Made by a program: the position numbers and the translations under genes. A stretch of 64,000 nt of DNA, from NCBI RefSeq assembly GCF_033880585.1, contig NZ_CP137624.1, forward strand, positions 2,887,501-2,951,500, read 5' to 3'. The stretch is from Lysinibacillus louembei. GTDB lineage: Bacteria; Bacillota; Bacilli; Bacillales_A; Planococcaceae. Positions 17,702 to 54,378 of this stretch are shown here, piece by piece. The first letter of the stretch is position 1. Each line of letters starts with the position of its first letter. The notes under the pieces are model-generated. The model worked only from the letters and a program-made list of their open reading frames with translations, was not told the origin of the DNA and did not search any database.

Positions 17702-17810
17702 CACTTATCAAGAGAAGCCGAGGGATATGGCCCGTTGACGCTTCAGCAACCTCTAACATTGATTAGAAAGGTGCTAATTCCAGCGGGGGGACTCCCGAGA
17801 GATAAGAGTG
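17702..17810 (+). ncRNA. SAM-I (S-box) riboswitch aptamer
   Basis: The S-box core is plain: CTTATC (17704-17709) pairs with GATAAG (17801-17806) as P1; the AGAG turn, the GGGATATGGCCC block, TTCAGCAACC, the AAGGTGCTAATTCC segment and GAGAGATAAGAG follow in the canonical order. It binds S-adenosylmethionine. High SAM should favour the downstream terminator and shut off metA, matching the role of MetA in methionine synthesis. Confidence 0.95.
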
Positions 17811-34477: not shown

Positions 34478-34801
<324 letters not shown>

Positions 34802-35569: not shown

Positions 35570-35853
35570 TTCCTTGCCCCTTCCAATTACATAGAGCGCG
35601 CTCTCTTTTTATTATAGGGGTATTTCAATAATAATGATACATTGTTCACAGTTTCTATATCCTCCCATAATTTTCAGAAAACTTAAAGTACACTTATTTA
35701 CTCCAAAGTCCCGTCTTGTATTGAACTGCTTCGTTGAAAAAAGTGCCAAAGCGTCGTTTGGAATGTTATTCAATAATCTAGTCTGATTGCTGAATAAAAA
35801 ATTCCTCCAAAACAATAAGTTTTATTTTAAATTATTAGATTCTGTTTTAAACT
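35570..35853. other. intergenic region with no supported gene
   Basis: A minus-strand frame of 67 codons exists at 35612-35815 but has poor composition and no good start. A 12-bp palindrome AGAGCGCGCTCT lies near 35594. Confidence 0.5.
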
Positions 35854-35937
35854 TTATTTTAAAGCCACACCAATACCAGAACCGTGACCTTCTTTTATCC
35901 ATTTTTCGATTTTAGATGTTCTTGCTCGTTTAGACAT
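35854..35937 (-). pseudogene. 27-codon remnant resembling the N-terminus of TnsA (Tn7-type transposition)
   Basis: The minus-strand frame starts at an ATG with AGAGGTG upstream and encodes 'MSKRARTSKIEKWIKEGHGSGIGV', followed by a stop three codons later. Firmicute TnsA endonucleases begin with this kind of sequence (SKR..., then K-W-I-K-E-G-x-G-x-G-x-G just before a Y-K-P-W motif). The remaining roughly 200 residues, including all catalytic residues, are missing. Upstream lies a repeat that recurs at 40304-40360 and could be a transposon end. Confidence 0.6.
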
Positions 35938-35948
35938 AAAAACACCTC

Positions 35949-36081
35949 TTTAGACAACTATAATCTAAAGGGGCATTTCATCGCAACTTTATTTCAAATC
36001 TACAGTAATGGCTATTTCCCCATTTTTGAAAATTTATTTTTTCAGCTCTTTTGCTCATATCCGTGATTAAAGGCTTGTACA
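35949..36081. repeat. repeat A: possible Tn7-like end next to the TnsA remnant
   Basis: The first 40 bp (35949-35988) match 40304-40343 at 33 of 40 positions. The outer boundary TTAAAGGCTTGTACA (to 36081) matches ATAAAGGCTGTACA (to 40360). Repeat A has about 80 bp more in the middle. The similarity seems to end at TGTACA; TGT...ACA is the terminus of Tn7-type elements. Confidence 0.5.
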
Positions 36082-36149
36082 TTTTACTTCACCTCACATA
36101 AATTCGTAATTTTCGGAAAATATAAGGTATAGAAGTTCTTGTCCTCATA

Positions 36150-36204
36150 CAAAAAAGCCTAATTTCTCAAATATAAATGTTAAGAAATTAGGCTTTTTTG
36201 TTTT
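36150..36204. terminator. terminator of the APH-like gene
   Basis: CAAAAAAGCCTAATTTCT (36150-36167) pairs perfectly with AGAAATTAGGCTTTTTTG (36183-36200), with T-runs usable on either strand. Confidence 0.9.
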
Positions 36205-36210
36205 GAAATT

Positions 36211-37281
36211 TTAAGATGAAAAACTATCATTTAACAGTACTTTCTGCTGAAAATCACTTACTTCATTTAGCTTTACCTTGAGTGGCATATTTCTCGAATC
36301 AGCTAGGAGGAAATTTAAAATAAACATACAAAAATAATCCTTTTTTAATTCAGGTTGAAACTCAAGTTGGAAAATATCAAAAGCTTTTTTAAAATGGTTA
36401 TCCAATTCCCCACTTAGATAGCATTTATAATATTCATAGCGATTATTCACATCCAGTTCATTCCACATGAATTTGAAAAAATCATAAAAGAAAATGTAAT
36501 CTCCTGATTCATCCCAGTCAATATACCACAATCTTGAAGGTCCATTTTGTTCTTTTCCTAAAAGAACATTTGCTGTCCATAAATCACCATGAAGTTTGAT
36601 AAATGGAAACTCAGCTTCAAATAATTGAGTATCTATATTGTTAACTATGTGCTTAAAACGTTCTACATGAATTGCATTAGAGCTGGTTTTTAAAAGATCG
36701 TTCAATGTATAATGAGCTGGTTGTGATTCACGGTTAATAGTTGAAAAATAATTAGTATAATCATCATAAATGCTTTTCAATATGAATGGATTATCTTGAT
36801 TACTTTGCCTTTGAAAATTAATATATTTTTCTATCAATTGATATTTATTATCATCTTGATATACCAGTTCTGGAAGCTTGAAAAATCTTGAAAAATACGT
36901 ATAGTTCTCAATCTTATTCAAATAGTTTTCTTTGTTATTACAAATAATCAATGTTTCAGTTTTAGAAAATATTTTAATGTCTCCATTGCTGCAAAACCAG
37001 ATAATATTTCCTTGAAACAATTTATGTTTCTCTTTTTTAACTTTTAAGGGTTTTTGCCAGCTTTTCAACTTTCCCTTTGTCAATGGGAGTGACCATTTTT
37101 GATCAAAGTCATAAATGTCAAATGAGCTATCGAGAATAGGAGAATTACTCTCCTTCGTATTAAACAAAACTCTCAATTCTTTATCAAACTCATAGGTACC
37201 ACAAGCTAGATAACGTTCTAATTGACGTACTTTCTTGGTTTTAGCCTTTTTTTCTTGTATATATTGATTTAGTTTGTCCAC
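36211..37281 (-). CDS. APH/choline-kinase-like phosphotransferase
   Basis: 356 residues. The kinase C-lobe is clear: 'FIKLHGDLWTANVLLGKEQNG' holds the catalytic Asp (HGDLW...N) and 'WYIDWDESGDYIFFYDFFKFMW' the Mg-binding Asp, as in aminoglycoside phosphotransferases and related sugar/choline kinases. The N-terminal 130 residues are atypical, and I see no clear ATP-binding Lys motif. The substrate is unknown; a resistance role should not be assumed. The start is GTG at 37281 with GAAGGAG upstream. Confidence 0.78.
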   Translation of the reverse strand: MDKLNQYIQEKKAKTKKVRQLERYLACGTYEFDKELRVLFNTKESNSPILDSSFDIYDFDQKWSLPLTKGKLKSWQKPLKVKKEKHKLFQGNIIWFCSNGDIKIFSKTETLIICNNKENYLNKIENYTYFSRFFKLPELVYQDDNKYQLIEKYINFQRQSNQDNPFILKSIYDDYTNYFSTINRESQPAHYTLNDLLKTSSNAIHVERFKHIVNNIDTQLFEAEFPFIKLHGDLWTANVLLGKEQNGPSRLWYIDWDESGDYIFFYDFFKFMWNELDVNNRYEYYKCYLSGELDNHFKKAFDIFQLEFQPELKKDYFCMFILNFLLADSRNMPLKVKLNEVSDFQQKVLLNDSFSS

Positions 37282-37317
37282 TGCTTACTCTCCTTCTAAA
37301 ATTTCATATTTATTTCC

Positions 37318-37415
37318 CCACCTTCTGATGCTTGTAAGACAACGAGTTAAGGTATTGAAATATTTCACTGTCATATCCTTTCCCTCTAGATGCTTCTTTT
37401 ATCATAACATCTTAA
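37318..37415 (-). pseudogene. decayed internal fragment of the GNAT gene at 34802-35569
   Basis: The plus-strand text matches 34868-34985 (CTGATGCTTGTAAGACAACG, then AAGGTATTGAAA, TTTCACTG, CATATCCTTT, CATAACATC) with about 33 bp deleted and scattered changes. It corresponds to the acetyl-CoA loop region and is not in an open frame. Confidence 0.85.
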
Positions 37416-37449
37416 GTCCAAGCTAACAGTGGACTTGCTGTAGCATTTT

Positions 37450-37590
37450 TTATTCTTTCTTCACTAATTTTAATTTTTCATAGCCTTTGACAGCTAAAGA
37501 AAGTGTTTGCTGTTCATTCTCAGAGGACTTTAAAGCAGATAGAATAAGGAAGTGGAGACCAATAGAGTTAATTATGCTTACCAGCAAACT
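37450..37590 (-). pseudogene. possible C-terminal fragment of an unknown protein
   Basis: A minus-strand frame of about 47 codons reads 'LSLLVSIINSIGLHFLILSALKSS', then 'LAVKGYEKLKLVKKE' and a stop. It has no start codon with a ribosome binding site and looks like the tail of a membrane-associated protein. It may also be chance. Confidence 0.3.
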
Positions 37591-37603
37591 TAGCTACAAG
37601 TAA

Positions 37604-37648
37604 TAAATAGAAACAGCCATCATGCTAAATGATGGCTGTTTCTATTTA
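37604..37648. terminator. terminator of the anti-sigma-like gene
   Basis: TAAATAGAAACAGCCATCAT (37604-37623) is the exact complement of 37629-37648 around a 5-base loop. It lies about 95 bp after the minus-strand gene ending at 37743. Confidence 0.85.
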
Positions 37649-37742
37649 TTATATTTTAGCAAGCTACTTACTATGTCCTCCCTATCTTCGATTTCTTTTT
37701 GCAATGGGCCCAATCGGTGAATAAAGGCTATGATTATAATGC

Positions 37743-38558
37743 TCATTTGAACACATCAAAGACTTTGCTTTCACCATCTTCATACGGGCAATTAACAATT
37801 TGTAGGTCTTTCATTTCCCATTTTGCGGAGCGAAGATATATAAATGACTTATCAAGTTCTACAATATTGTGACTCGTACCATATTGTAAATCGTCGTATT
37901 GCTCATGATAACCTGGTTGTTCAATAGTTTTAGGACTAAATAAATTTGGTGGCTGTTGTGTAGTTTTTTTGATTATTCTAGTACTAATATCATATTGATG
38001 AGTAAATATATATTGATTAGACGACATAGACATATCATCATTTCCAATAAAGATTGTTGTACCATCTTGCGATACAGATGCCAATATCATTGAAATGCCA
38101 TATGACTTAATTTGCTCATATGAAATCCGATTCGTAACAATTGAATCTTGCATATTATATACGACTACTCCAAATGTACCTTGCATAACTGCTATCTGGT
38201 TATCGGCATATAAAAGTCGAGGCATCTCGGCACCAATATTCATTTGTTCAATGTCAGACAGGTCCACCGCTAATTCTTTACCTTCAGGTAAGGTAATATT
38301 TTCATTACCAGAACCCTGTGCAACATACTCGTTTTCTGGAACTATAATTGGACTTTTTAGAAAGGATAGGCTTAGTATGATAAAAATAATTGCTGCAAAA
38401 GCCAAAACTGTCCAATATAACGGATTCCCACTTCTTGATTTATAAAACTCTTGTTGAATTTTTAGGTGAATTTTCTTACTTTCTTCAGTCGAAAATTCAA
38501 CATTTTCTCCTAAATAACTCTTCACTTTACCTGATATCTTCTTATCAAAGTTATTCAA
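37743..38558 (-). CDS. single-pass membrane protein, anti-sigma-factor-like
   Basis: 271 residues: a cytoplasmic N-terminus of about 47 residues ('SGKVKSYLGENVEFSTEESKKIHLKIQQEF'), one membrane helix (about 48-67), and a large outside domain that is beta-rich ('MPRLLYADNQIAVMQGTFGVVVYNM', 'ASVSQDGTTIFIGNDDM'), probably propeller-like. This is the layout of transmembrane anti-sigma factors. A decayed ECF sigma gene lies directly upstream in the same direction, 13 bp away, where the cognate sigma gene would be expected. The start is TTG with AAAGGAG 8 bases upstream, just after the stop of the sigma remnant. It may now be an orphan. Confidence 0.65.
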   Translation of the reverse strand: MNNFDKKISGKVKSYLGENVEFSTEESKKIHLKIQQEFYKSRSGNPLYWTVLAFAAIIFIILSLSFLKSPIIVPENEYVAQGSGNENITLPEGKELAVDLSDIEQMNIGAEMPRLLYADNQIAVMQGTFGVVVYNMQDSIVTNRISYEQIKSYGISMILASVSQDGTTIFIGNDDMSMSSNQYIFTHQYDISTRIIKKTTQQPPNLFSPKTIEQPGYHEQYDDLQYGTSHNIVELDKSFIYLRSAKWEMKDLQIVNCPYEDGESKVFDVFK

Positions 38559-38571
38559 GTTGACTACTCCT

Positions 38572-38803
38572 TTAAAGACTTATTTCCTTCATGTTCATTT
38601 CCTGATAGTAATAAAGAATGAGAACATCTTTGTATTTTCCTGAAAGACCAGCGATTTGTTTTATTATTTCTTTGGAATGTTGTTGTTGAATATATTCATT
38701 TTCGGATGAATGACTTGTATTCAATAAATAAATTTCTGGTTTATAAATTAGATTCTTAAGGTTAGACGAATGTAAAGCTGCTTTTGATCCGTTTAAATTG
38801 GAA
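38572..38803 (-). pseudogene. truncated ECF sigma factor gene (region 4 remnant)
   Basis: One minus-strand frame reads 'HSKEIIKQIAGLSGKYKDV' and 'LILYYYQEMNMKEISL' then stops. This is sigma-70 region 4 ('L..LP.KYREV..LYYYQELS..EIA') cut off just inside the helix-turn-helix. Before it, 'SENEYIQQQ' resembles the linker; regions 1 and 2 are gone, replaced by the serine hydrolase gene that ends at 38804. No start codon or ribosome binding site serves it. The fragment is placed as the expected sigma partner of the gene at 37743-38558. Confidence 0.75.
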
Positions 38804-39688
38804 TTACACTTCTAATAGGTAGTCCATAAAATATTGTAAGGGTCTTGCTGATCCATCTTTAAAACTACTTGTGAAAACCGTTACTAATTGATAGTCCGGT
38901 GCGACAATAATATACTGACCTTCACGTCCAACAGCCAAAAAAATTCTATCTATTTGATTGTCGGATGTTACATTCCACCAATGATACGCGTATGCATAAT
39001 TATCATCTGTCTTGATCTTTGGACTTGTAGATTCCTCAATCCAGTGATATGGCACAATTTGTTTAGATTTGCATACGCCATTATTTAAATAAAGCGTACC
39101 GATTTTTAACATATCAACTGTTTTCATCGCTAATCCGAATCCGCCAATGGCGATACCTTGAGGGTCACAGTTCCATCTATAATCTGTTATGCCCAGAGGT
39201 GTAAATAAATACTTTTTAGCGAAGGCTTCTGTATGTAGTCCAGTAGTCTTTTGTAAGATGGCACTTAATAATTGTGAAGAACCACAGCTGTAGACCATTT
39301 CATTTCCTGGAGGATGAGCAATGTCCTGCTGCAGCACAAAATTGACCCAATTTTTGCTCGGTATCATCCCATTATTACCTGGCCAGTATAATCCTGATGT
39401 CATTGTTAACAGATGCTTAATTGTAATTTTCTCTTTTTCTTTATCTTGATCAAATTCCGGAAAGTAATGACTGATTGGCATGTTCACATGTTCAATAAAG
39501 CCTTTGTCAATCGCAATGCCAATCAGTGCGGACAAAATGCTTTTTGTAACAGAATATATTTTATGCTGTCTTTCCTTCATTTTGTTGTTTCGATAATATT
39601 CAAAAATCATGGTATTATTTTTCTGTACAAGGACACTATCAATTTTGTCTTTTTTTATTATTTTTTCAAAATCGGTTAAAGATTGCAT
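38804..39688 (-). CDS. serine hydrolase, class C beta-lactamase/PBP-like fold
   Basis: 294 residues. The nucleophile motif S-x-x-K is S46-V-T-K49 ('IYSVTKSILSALIGIAIDKG'); 'YSCGSSQLL' fits the second motif (Tyr conserved, Asn replaced by Cys, as in esterase-type relatives); 'VGREGQYII' lies at the third-motif strand. 'HLLTMTSGL' is typical of the family. There is no signal peptide, so it is probably cytoplasmic and an esterase, amidase or peptidase rather than a secreted beta-lactamase. Upstream AAGGGG is 13 bases away, so the start is not certain. Confidence 0.85.
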   Translation of the reverse strand: MQSLTDFEKIIKKDKIDSVLVQKNNTMIFEYYRNNKMKERQHKIYSVTKSILSALIGIAIDKGFIEHVNMPISHYFPEFDQDKEKEKITIKHLLTMTSGLYWPGNNGMIPSKNWVNFVLQQDIAHPPGNEMVYSCGSSQLLSAILQKTTGLHTEAFAKKYLFTPLGITDYRWNCDPQGIAIGGFGLAMKTVDMLKIGTLYLNNGVCKSKQIVPYHWIEESTSPKIKTDDNYAYAYHWWNVTSDNQIDRIFLAVGREGQYIIVAPDYQLVTVFTSSFKDGSARPLQYFMDYLLEV

Positions 39689-39715
39689 TTTATTGAGAAT
39701 CGCCCCTTAATTAAA

Positions 39716-40273
39716 CTATCGGTAATTATTATGAATAGGTTGAAACACATCTTCATTCGCATTTCTAACCATTGAAAAATTGTCGACATTGTAATGTCCA
39801 TGAAGAATTTTATTATGATGGCCGATAATTTGTTCAGCCGTTAAGCTTTGGGAATCTGTTGTTGAATGACCGTTCTCTATTAAAGTAACATCAAAACCGC
39901 TTACAGTTGCTGTCCTGACTGCTGTATCTATACAATGCTCCGTTTTGCAGCCCATTATGACAAGGTGCTGCACCTTGTTCTCTTGTAAACAGCTCAATAA
40001 TGGCGTACCGTAAAATGAATTCGTTGCCTTTTTATCAAATACTATTGCTTCTTGGGGAATATGGATGGCTTCGTGGACTTCGAAACCTTTACCTACGCCT
40101 TCAGCTACATCCTTATCTCTTATAAAAATAATTAAGCTATTTGCCTCTAATGCTTTTTTTACTACTAAATTAATATTATCCAACAAAGATGCTTTATTAA
40201 AAACGCTTTGTTCTTGCTCATTCCCATCAATCAATTGTTGTTGTGCATCAATAACCACTAAAGCTTGTTTCAA
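39716..40273 (-). CDS. isochorismatase-family cysteine hydrolase (copy 1)
   Basis: 185 residues. The D-K-C triad fits D9 ('VVIDAQQQ'), K82 ('DKKATNSFYGT') and C114 ('GCKTEHCIDTAVRTA'). It should hydrolyse an amide or ether-type substrate such as a nicotinamide- or isochorismate-like compound; the substrate is unknown. I take the TTG at 40273 as the start because AAAAGGGG is 7 bases upstream and the family begins at this residue; an ATG at 40291 overlaps the ribosome binding site. A second family member lies at 46186-46728. Its upstream region is repeat B. Confidence 0.88.
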   Translation of the reverse strand: MKQALVVIDAQQQLIDGNEQEQSVFNKASLLDNINLVVKKALEANSLIIFIRDKDVAEGVGKGFEVHEAIHIPQEAIVFDKKATNSFYGTPLLSCLQENKVQHLVIMGCKTEHCIDTAVRTATVSGFDVTLIENGHSTTDSQSLTAEQIIGHHNKILHGHYNVDNFSMVRNANEDVFQPIHNNYR

Positions 40274-40303
40274 TAGAAAACCCCTTTTCATTTATCATTT
40301 CAC

Positions 40304-40360
40304 TTTAGATAACTATAAGCTAAGGAAGTATTTTATCGCAACTATTATAAAGGCTGTACA
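40304..40360. repeat. repeat B: second copy of the TnsA-flanking repeat
   Basis: 40304-40343 matches 35949-35988 at 33 of 40 positions in the same orientation, and the boundary AAAGGCTGTACA is shared. It lies upstream of the minus-strand cysteine hydrolase gene, as repeat A lies upstream of the TnsA remnant, and may also supply its promoter. Confidence 0.55.
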
Positions 40361-52538: not shown

Positions 52539-52801
52539 TATCTTATGCGAGAATTTGTTTTTTTGCAAAAAAGAAGTCCCTTGAAGCATGATTTTATTGT
52601 TTCATATTTAACTAGAAAATCCCTTCTTAACCCGACCTCCTCCGCTGAACACCAATCCTAGTGAAGCTTGATATGACGGGCTATAATTAGAGGGGGCATG
52701 CATTTGCTGTGAAATTTTTATTTTCTCCATCGACTTTTGTTAGGGTGAAAGAAAGTCTGATTAAAAATATCACGCAAAAACTCATTCTAGACAAATAAAA
52801 A
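52539..52801. other. intergenic region with no assigned gene
   Basis: A 29-codon plus-strand frame lies at 52709-52798 (GTG start); its supposed promoter and ribosome binding site conflict in position, so it is not called. AAGAAGTCCC near 52570 and CCCTTCTT near 52621 form a loose inverted pair. Confidence 0.4.
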
Positions 52802-52838
52802 GAATCCATTTTGACAAAAGATTAATCAAAATGGATTC
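52802..52838. terminator. terminator of the MFS gene
   Basis: GAATCCATTTTGA (52802-52814) and TCAAAATGGATTC (52826-52838) are exact complements; the minus-strand side is followed by TTTTTATTT. Confidence 0.88.
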
Positions 52839-52917
52839 CTACCTGTAAATAACCACTTTCAGATTATGTGGCATGATGGTCAAGTATTTATTTTTTGTTA
52901 AAGCATCATGACATTAT

Positions 52918-54108
52918 TCAAATATCGCATCTTTTTTTATAAAGTAAGGGCAAGCTTATGAAAAGCATAACAATCCCTAATGCTAAAAAATATAGTGGCA
53001 TCGCAAGGAGTGTTCCGTTATGAAAAACACTCATCCCATAGATTGTAGCACTGACGAGTAAATAATAACTTAAGCTAAATATCGCACCCGCAGAACCAAT
53101 GACGTCTTGAAAATCAATGAGTGCTAAGCTTAAACAATTTGGTAAAGCGATCCCTGTACCAAATAAAATAATGAACACGCTAACAATCATAATTGTCATT
53201 TGTAATGTAATCGGCAAAAAATGTACCGATGTGGCTAGTGTTGTACCGATGAGCATAATAGCTAACCCACATACGATAATCTTCTCAGGTTTTGTATGGC
53301 TAACGAGTCGTTTAGATAGCATCGCACCTGCGATAGAAGAGAGCGCAACGATAATACCTAAAAAACCATACATTGCACTTGTCAGTGTAAAGTATTTTGT
53401 AAAAATAAACGGTGCTTCGGCATAGTAGCTAAATAATACACCGTTAATACCGCCTATTAATATGCTATAGCGCCATAGACGGGCATTTGTAATCATGCGT
53501 TTTATTATCGGTATGAAAGGCTTCGTATCGATTGTAGTAAGCATTGTTTCAGGTAAGCGTAAAAACGCATAGCAAAATACAATAACACTCATAACGACTA
53601 ACACCCAAAATACGACTTTAAAGCCAAAATAATAATCGGTAAAGCCACCAATTAACGGACCAAGGGCAGGTGTGAAGGCAAGGGCAGCTGAAATTTGAGC
53701 GAACAATTTATGTCGCTCAATGCCAGAAAAACTTTCGCGTAAAATCGTTTGTGTCACAACTGAGCCAGCACTTGCACCAAACGCTTGAATAGAACGTGCT
53801 ATTAATAAAACTACCATTTCATTTGCTACTAAACAAAATATGTTACCAACAAAATATAAAAACAGCCCATAAATCATTGCCTTGCGACGACCGATTTTAT
53901 CGGATAAACGCCCAAAGAAAAATACCCCGAAGGCAAAAGCGATAAAGTACACACTCATCGTAAGCTGTGCATCACTCATAGAAGCTTCAAACGCTTCTGC
54001 GATAGAAGGTAATGATGGGCTAAAAATGGTTTCACTAATTTGTGGGAAGCCTACTAATACAATCAGTAATAATAAGCTAGGTGCTTTGTTTTCGATGTTT
54101 TTCTTCAA
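52918..54108 (-). CDS. MFS drug-resistance transporter, Bcr/CflA type
   Basis: 396 residues with 12 membrane helices. 'MSVYFIAFAFGVFFFGRLSDKIGRRKAMIYGL' contains MFS motif A (G-R-L-S-D-K-x-G-R-R-K), and 'ARSIQAFGASAGSVVTQTILRE' matches the Bcr/CflA helix 4 sequence. It should be a proton-driven multidrug or sulfonamide/bicyclomycin-type efflux pump. The start is TTG with GAGAGGA upstream; that ribosome binding site overlaps the stop of a 27-codon frame at 54121-54204. Confidence 0.92.
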   Translation of the reverse strand: MKKNIENKAPSLLLLIVLVGFPQISETIFSPSLPSIAEAFEASMSDAQLTMSVYFIAFAFGVFFFGRLSDKIGRRKAMIYGLFLYFVGNIFCLVANEMVVLLIARSIQAFGASAGSVVTQTILRESFSGIERHKLFAQISAALAFTPALGPLIGGFTDYYFGFKVVFWVLVVMSVIVFCYAFLRLPETMLTTIDTKPFIPIIKRMITNARLWRYSILIGGINGVLFSYYAEAPFIFTKYFTLTSAMYGFLGIIVALSSIAGAMLSKRLVSHTKPEKIIVCGLAIMLIGTTLATSVHFLPITLQMTIMIVSVFIILFGTGIALPNCLSLALIDFQDVIGSAGAIFSLSYYLLVSATIYGMSVFHNGTLLAMPLYFLALGIVMLFISLPLLYKKRCDI

Positions 54109-54120
54109 AATAATCCTCTC

Positions 54121-54204
54121 CTAGATAATTATAGGTTTGAAAGAAAAACATCGTAGCTTGGGAAATGGTGGCTTCATGAGTTTAATTTTTTCTAAATCAC
54201 TCAT
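54121..54204 (-). CDS. possible 27-aa leader peptide upstream of the MFS gene
   Basis: An ATG at 54204 with GGAAGGAAG 7-8 bases upstream opens a frame 'MSDLEKIKLMKPPFPKLRC' that ends in TAG at 54121, and that stop touches the ribosome binding site of the MFS gene. The position suggests translational coupling or a regulatory upstream frame; the Pro-Pro pair is a possible stall point. It could equally be the relic of a longer gene. Confidence 0.35.
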   Translation of the reverse strand: MSDLEKIKLMKPPFPKLRCFSFKPIII

Positions 54205-54378
54205 GAGTTCACTTCCTTCCATTAAAAATACATAGGAAATCATACTATCTTTTTAGTAAGCATTCAATAAAAAGTTTAATTCTTTCTACTCCATCAATTT
54301 AAATTTCAAGAGGCAAATAAAAAGTAATCACCTAGTAATTTAAGATGATTACTTTTTCCATGAACAATTTAAATAGGT

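Follow-up and report, generated by a model that had tools for sequence, protein, structure and literature searches.

Transposons of the Tn7 type that target glmS carry TnsE homologues almost universally, and TnsE steers insertion to replicating DNA (PMC11406308). In Tn7 itself, a right end with repeated units lies beside glmS, and the tnsA gene is next to that end. The window analyzed here is a stretch of 64,000 bp from the genome of Lysinibacillus louembei (assembly GCF_033880585.1, contig NZ_CP137624.1, positions 2,887,501 to 2,951,500), in which two related sequences, copy A (35866-36004, minus strand) and copy B (40303..40360, minus strand), were compared with such elements. Sequence comparison identified copy A as the right end of a Tn7-like transposon of the TnsABCDE type, together with 24 codons of tnsA. 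The favored reading, to which a probability of roughly 0.9 is given, is that copy A is a right end, now eroded, of an element of the glmS-targeting TnsABCDE branch that settled away from glmS and then lost its genes and its left end, that copy B is probably an older or duplicated copy, and that a sequence at 52738-52845 is a left end. Unlike Tn7, the window relic lies away from glmS and retains one repeat unit and 24 tnsA codons. The right end with a TGT terminus and units next to tnsA that is typical of Tn7 and of glmS-targeting elements was found in copy A and partly in copy B; a TnsA gene was present in the relatives tested and is reduced to 24 codons in the window, and genes for TnsB, TnsC, TnsD, and TnsE were present in an intact relative from Kurthia zopfii and absent from the window relic.

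Copy A scored 63.1 bits (E = 1.6e-17) in a search of 0.68 Mb, the space to which all E values of this profile refer, with a profile of 15 right ends from relatives and 33.3 bits with a second profile of eight four-unit right ends. The best score with the 15-end profile in 40 dinucleotide-shuffled versions of the window, copy A removed, was 9.2 bits. Alignment with relatives and the profile placed the terminus (TGTAG...) at 36004, with one remaining repeat unit, a presumed TnsB site (TGTAGATTTGAAATAAAGTTGCGATG), at 35979..36004 (minus strand) and the start of tnsA 67 bp inside; by eye, four such units of about 20 bp are usual at the right ends of relatives. The original prediction had drawn this repeat at 35949-36081: a right end is present there, and its boundary was misplaced, as 36005-36081 is flank outside copy A. 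The frame at 35854..35937 (minus strand) reads MSKRARTSKIEKWIKEGHGSGIGVALK and stops after 27 residues, the N-terminal part (MSKRARTSKIEKWIKEGHGSGIG) being followed by foreign codons. Its residues 1 to 24 agreed at 19 to 21 of 24 positions with each of ten TnsA starts, a subset of 71 loci with a TnsA relative from named genomes, which upholds the earlier statement that 24 TnsA-typical residues precede a stop. The 27-residue frame had no match in Pfam. A 21-mer resembling a left terminus at the tnsA breakpoint (35849..35869, plus strand) was not significant (5.2 bits, E = 0.52, window alone). A sigma-70-like promoter of the former tnsA (TTGCGA-18-TATAGT; 35957..35986, minus strand) is predicted from a consensus match only. 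A short frame (MYKPLITDMSKRAEKINFQKWGNSHY..., 35978-36082, minus strand) runs into the transposon end; it had no match in Pfam, and its KWGNS motif is reminiscent of MazE-type antitoxins, an unsupported likeness.

The same DNA was found in relatives with open tnsA genes. A query of 251 bases around the tnsA remnant matched at least 40 of 151 genomes (L. louembei included; five candidates scored per genome), PF08722 was detected in 26 of the 151, and several of the DNA matches lay directly before such genes. Among 30 TnsA loci, five started immediately after this right-end sequence, as did a sixth (L023), the frame of which is broken. Upstream regions were inspected by eye at 55 of the 71 loci with a TnsA relative, and 49 had the right-end palindrome just before tnsA. 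In Kurthia, Lysinibacillus, and other Bacilli, open tnsA frames had the DNA of copy A immediately in front of them, so that the proposed alignment of DNA upstream of TnsA with this repeat held, and 16 of 21 open frames lay 84 to 153 bases behind the glmS stop codon. The start of the element in relatives was TGT.G.TTTGAAATAAAG or nearly so, usually followed by four units of about 20 bp, the palindrome, and tnsA (by eye). The predicted adjacency of tnsA to an end with repeated units, as in Tn7, was thus the layout of the relatives too.

The repeat, which had been proposed for a search in intact Tn7-like elements, was present in one of them. This K. zopfii element (L086) comprised glmS, the right end, and genes for TnsA, a Mu-type TnsB, and a TniB/AAA TnsC, then a frame of 272 codons that had no Pfam match, TnsD (PF15978), and TnsE_C (PF18623), and its left end lay 12 kb away; its TnsA was assigned through Pfam on the same gene in L024. 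Its gene order (A-B-C-272-codon frame-D-E) and its right end with repeated units beside glmS and next to tnsA were like those of Tn7, and the TnsA of a likely Tn7 on an Escherichia coli plasmid was 46.7% identical to Kurthia TnsA over residues 9 to 177. Repeat A DNA also occurred on plasmids, under or beside annotated TnsA; on plasmid pLEW6932, TnsA, a Mu-type transposase, an ATP-binding protein, TnsD, and TnsE are annotated beside ars genes. The phage records searched gave no match. The right-end DNA of the window was the same as that of the Tn7-like elements of K. zopfii (L086 and L158), Lysinibacillus piscis (L079 and L163), and pLEW6932 (L237), and the TnsA starts of L158 and L163 were among the ten compared above. 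These Bacilli elements have open tnsA frames, and L086 and L237 have other transposition genes too, whereas the window has none.

Several features of these relatives were observed in passing. At three loci (L088 3615-6361, L192 1189-3001, and L202 upstream of 3001), right ends of the family stood directly after a gene ending CNTCTNCGAQLKCGL, which we take to be ribonucleotide reductase-like, rather than after glmS; this gene is a possible second attachment site. The tnsA frame at L192 3001-4071 passed after about 100 codons into TnsD-like sequence (by eye), apparently as a deletion fusion. At L086 5703-5735 and L087 17064-17097, left termini were joined directly to the inner side of the tnsA hairpin sequence, and the outer portion of a right end was missing.

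Copy B was identified as a probable second end copy, much decayed, in the same orientation as copy A and without a tnsA start. It scored 18.0 bits (E = 0.0014) with the 15-end profile, compared with at most 9.2 bits in the shuffled windows, and the earlier identity count for the inner block shared with copy A (33 of 40) was reproduced. A promoter-like pair (TTGCGA-18-TATAGT; 40312..40341, minus strand, consensus match only) was the same as in copy A. Promoter-like sites in the region numbered 29 in the scan compared with 24.0 in shuffled sequence, so that such a match alone is no proof; what counts is its identity in both copies. Behind copy B lies a gene assigned to the isochorismatase domain by a domain match (39716..40291, minus strand). 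The TGTACA boundary that had been proposed as common to both copies is present at 40355-40360, the outer edge of copy B, and at 36076-36081, which lies in the flank of copy A and not at its terminus. The outer pieces of the copy A flank and copy B aligned at 15 of 16 columns with one gap, a score reached by 0.18% of 5,000 shuffled pairs and equaled by 5 of 1,090 other pieces of the window, and this likeness is only suggestive.

That outer likeness, which extends beyond the copy A terminus, and the identical promoter-like pair would both fit a single insertion, in which a segment of copy A and its flank was duplicated and copy B then lost its middle, so that two independent insertions never took place. 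We consider this unlikely. The outer match is short and roughly fits a decayed TGT... terminus too, and the comparison of the surroundings of copies A and B covered just the window repeats described. On the favored reading, copy B would be an older or duplicated right-end copy of which the promoter block is left, and this block may today drive the isochorismatase-like gene downstream.

A relic in the glmS array of L. piscis (G017) bears on the origin of copy A. A stretch of the window that includes the deletion junction (35733..35993, minus strand) was shared with this relic at 237 of 271 columns, with 17 gaps; the tnsA breakpoint of copy A and about 130 bp past it thus recur in one L. piscis unit, and this unit keeps both ends, about 2.8 kb apart. 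L. piscis has a ladder of ends behind glmS (L078 and L079). Within that ladder (L078 4799-19614 and L079 15279-15402), one open family TnsA frame, a TnsA of another kind (L044), and several relics were observed. The junction shared with L. piscis, taken as another genus, favors the view that copy A is a copy of a nonautonomous deletion derivative, composed of a right end, 24 tnsA codons, other DNA, and a left end, that was mobilized in trans by complete elements. We regard this origin as doubtful: with three candidates scored in each of 261 family genomes, just two, that of the window and that of L. piscis, gave a single match across the junction, genome G038 has the two sides as separate matches about 220 bp apart, common descent of one relic or another form of transfer explains the junction too, and the window copy has no left end. 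Another view takes copies A and B for ordinary promoters that resemble each other by chance or through shared regulation and have no transposon link. It is very improbable even though copy B precedes a gene, keeps the promoter-like pair, and matches the four-unit profile weakly, and promoter-like sites are near the shuffled level, since this view is contradicted for copy A by its tnsA frame, its terminus, and its relatives with open tnsA frames and is opposed for copy B by the profile score above the shuffled windows.

The remainder of the L. louembei genome contained further ends of the family. Behind its own glmS, at least three right ends and three left ends lay within about 13 kb (L007 and L008), the first right end 15 bp behind the glmS stop codon by the profile, with its tnsA reading away from glmS. 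Right and left ends were observed to alternate in one orientation (L007 9845-14040 and L008 1799-2882), as if from successive Tn7-like insertions followed by decay. A literature search on tandem glmS remnants in Bacillus found no paper. A further right end was detected at 1.636 Mb. A right-end model that includes tnsA codons (R1) listed five right ends in this genome (E up to 0.5; weakest E = 0.046), with an end at 1.259 Mb and copy B unlisted. A second genome of the same species (G179) lacks copy A; its one R1 match is elsewhere, behind glmS, where a right end of four units comes with an open tnsA frame of 220 codons. No PF08722 (TnsA) match was found in the L. louembei genome with the query that was positive in other genomes, and no TnsB match was found with a query run without a positive control; among the Tns genes, the genome-wide search was limited to TnsA and TnsB. 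None of the relics is expected to move on its own, since these searches yielded neither a TnsA nor a TnsB gene.

A left-end relic of the same transposon family, its terminus on the low-coordinate side, was found at 52738..52845 (minus strand); it scored 34.1 bits (E = 7.8e-9 in 0.68 Mb), and 40 shuffled sequences reached at most 11.1 bits. It lies 12 kb from copy B and is paired with neither copy A nor copy B. A segment of about 1.65 kb containing this relic and a transporter-like gene (52646-54294) is missing from G179, by insertion or deletion.

The source of copy A would be a cut-and-paste transposon of the glmS-targeting TnsABCDE branch from Bacilli of the Lysinibacillus and Kurthia type. 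The element would have reached a site away from glmS, plausibly by the TnsE route; we infer that such a site was within reach because TnsE directs insertion to replicating DNA. Deletion would then have removed the transposition genes and the left end, leaving one repeat unit, the tnsA promoter block, the hairpin, and 24 tnsA codons. In favor of this reading, homology with G179, which lacks copy A, resumes at 36007. Several observations weigh against it. The copy A site is not behind glmS (glmS is at 1.24 Mb, the window at 2.89 to 2.95 Mb), the TnsE route to such a site is itself only inferred, and transposition into it is not proved, no second copy of a target duplication having been found; copy A could have arrived by recombination. 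A candidate 5-bp target duplication adjoins the terminus (36005..36009, positioned by alignment with relatives), and its partner was not found, one flank of copy A being all that can be judged. The homology of G179 to the copy A flank, which begins three bases past the terminus, extends over just 36 bp (36007-36042, 94%). Copy B scored just 6.6 bits with the four-unit profile (E = 0.34, window alone), was not listed by that profile in the 0.68-Mb search, formed no stable hairpin (z = -0.16), and was missed by R1.

The DNA between copies A and B had been interpreted as typical cargo, bounded by the products of two successive insertions or of a deleted composite. Two successive insertions are possible; cargo of one element or a composite across these 4.3 kb was unsupported, as the left-end profile found no left end between the copies (E up to 0.5) and G179 has most of the kinase and the orphan gene in the same region (window 36561-38759, in pieces), near which the end profiles found no end. 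Synteny with the genus mates G001, G002, and G003 and with G179 stops near 34639-34673. In G001, the acetyltransferase and the beta-lactamase-like gene lie near the same core genes in a different order, with a 19-bp exact match to the terminus about 2.5 kb from the acetyltransferase and a weak left-end match beside it (12.8 bits, E = 0.027). Because G179 and G001 carry these genes in the region, and no end was found near those of G179, it is more probable that the genes reside in a variable region than that one element brought them as cargo. Elsewhere in the window, a SAM riboswitch (RF00162) was observed at 17702-17808, above the gathering score.

The palindrome before tnsA was examined in 21 open tnsA frames of the family (18 distinct sequences, fusion frames such as that of L192 and the 405-codon frame of L177 included), and 98.1% of cells paired. 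Among the 18 distinct sequences, 4 of 12 pairs had changed on both sides. The pairing and the number of both-side changes were reached in 0 of 500 shuffles and the count of further pair types in 5 of 500, these shuffles ignoring relatedness; slid structures paired in at most 63.4%. Six example hairpins had folding energies of -15.1 to -22.4 kcal/mol (z = -5.2 to -6.7), and the copy A hairpin around the tnsA ribosome site (35939..35979, minus strand; folding and covariation in relatives) had -15.3 kcal/mol with one mismatch. Median energies were -20.1 for open (n = 21) and -18.2 for truncated (n = 27) tnsA, with no clear separation (P = 0.075). Because truncated relics keep nearly as good a hairpin, its preservation is not proof of selection through tnsA, and the paired changes could also be obtained from a DNA operator with twofold symmetry. 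In L158, a terminator scan found the hairpin terminator-like, and a strict promoter scan found no promoter before tnsA. A looser script, run without a shuffled control, placed the best hexamer pair with its end 19 to 22 bases before the start codon, at the hairpin top, in 18 of the 21 open frames.

Outside the family, hairpins of other sequence, as strong as those of the family or stronger, were found upstream of tnsA in an E. coli plasmid element (-18.2 kcal/mol), a Salmonella plasmid element (-30.4), and a divergent Bacilli locus (L180; -20.9). Hairpins of -18 kcal/mol or better were present in 3 of 15 TnsA upstream regions outside the family (L239, L241, and L180); the other 12 had none that strong, the start codon being unconfirmed for several of them. 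No description of a hairpin before tnsA was found in the accessible parts of the literature searched (PMC10293859, PMC11406308, PMC2918618, PMC5006887, PMC8649781, PMC8450116, and PMC12428005), a scope outside which the older subscription literature falls and which is not proof that the hairpin is unpublished.

These features suggest a model in which the right ends of this Tn7-like family, perhaps of Tn7 itself, may carry a shield against read-through, a proposal that we hold tentatively and at somewhat less than even odds. In the predicted tnsA promoter, the -35 box would fall within the innermost repeat, and the -10 box would sit at the top of a hairpin of 12 to 15 bp; the 3' arm of this hairpin would form the ribosome site and be followed by a T run. 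A transcript from the element's own promoter would begin within the hairpin and be translatable, and RNA entering from glmS or another host gene would fold and thereby stop or hide the tnsA start. The transposase genes of IS10, IS50, and IS200 are guarded from read-through. The proposed shield is like their protection in that a hairpin present only in read-through RNA would bury the ribosome site; unlike theirs, it concerns a Tn7-like right end and is proposed from covariation and folding alone. In L. louembei, a glmS ribozyme (RF00234) was observed upstream of glmS (L007 7673-7845), and this ribozyme would govern read-through from glmS into the ends.

The copy A relic is an ordinary fossil of a known kind, and the hairpin is the part worth an experiment. 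A 24-codon trace and the repeat upstream of it are enough for a Tn7-like fossil to be recognized. Some of these Bacilli have ladders of ends behind glmS and stray copies elsewhere, which make a history of insertions legible. A hairpin that acts in the proposed way would help to explain how a transposon retains control of its transposase after landing behind a transcribed host gene.

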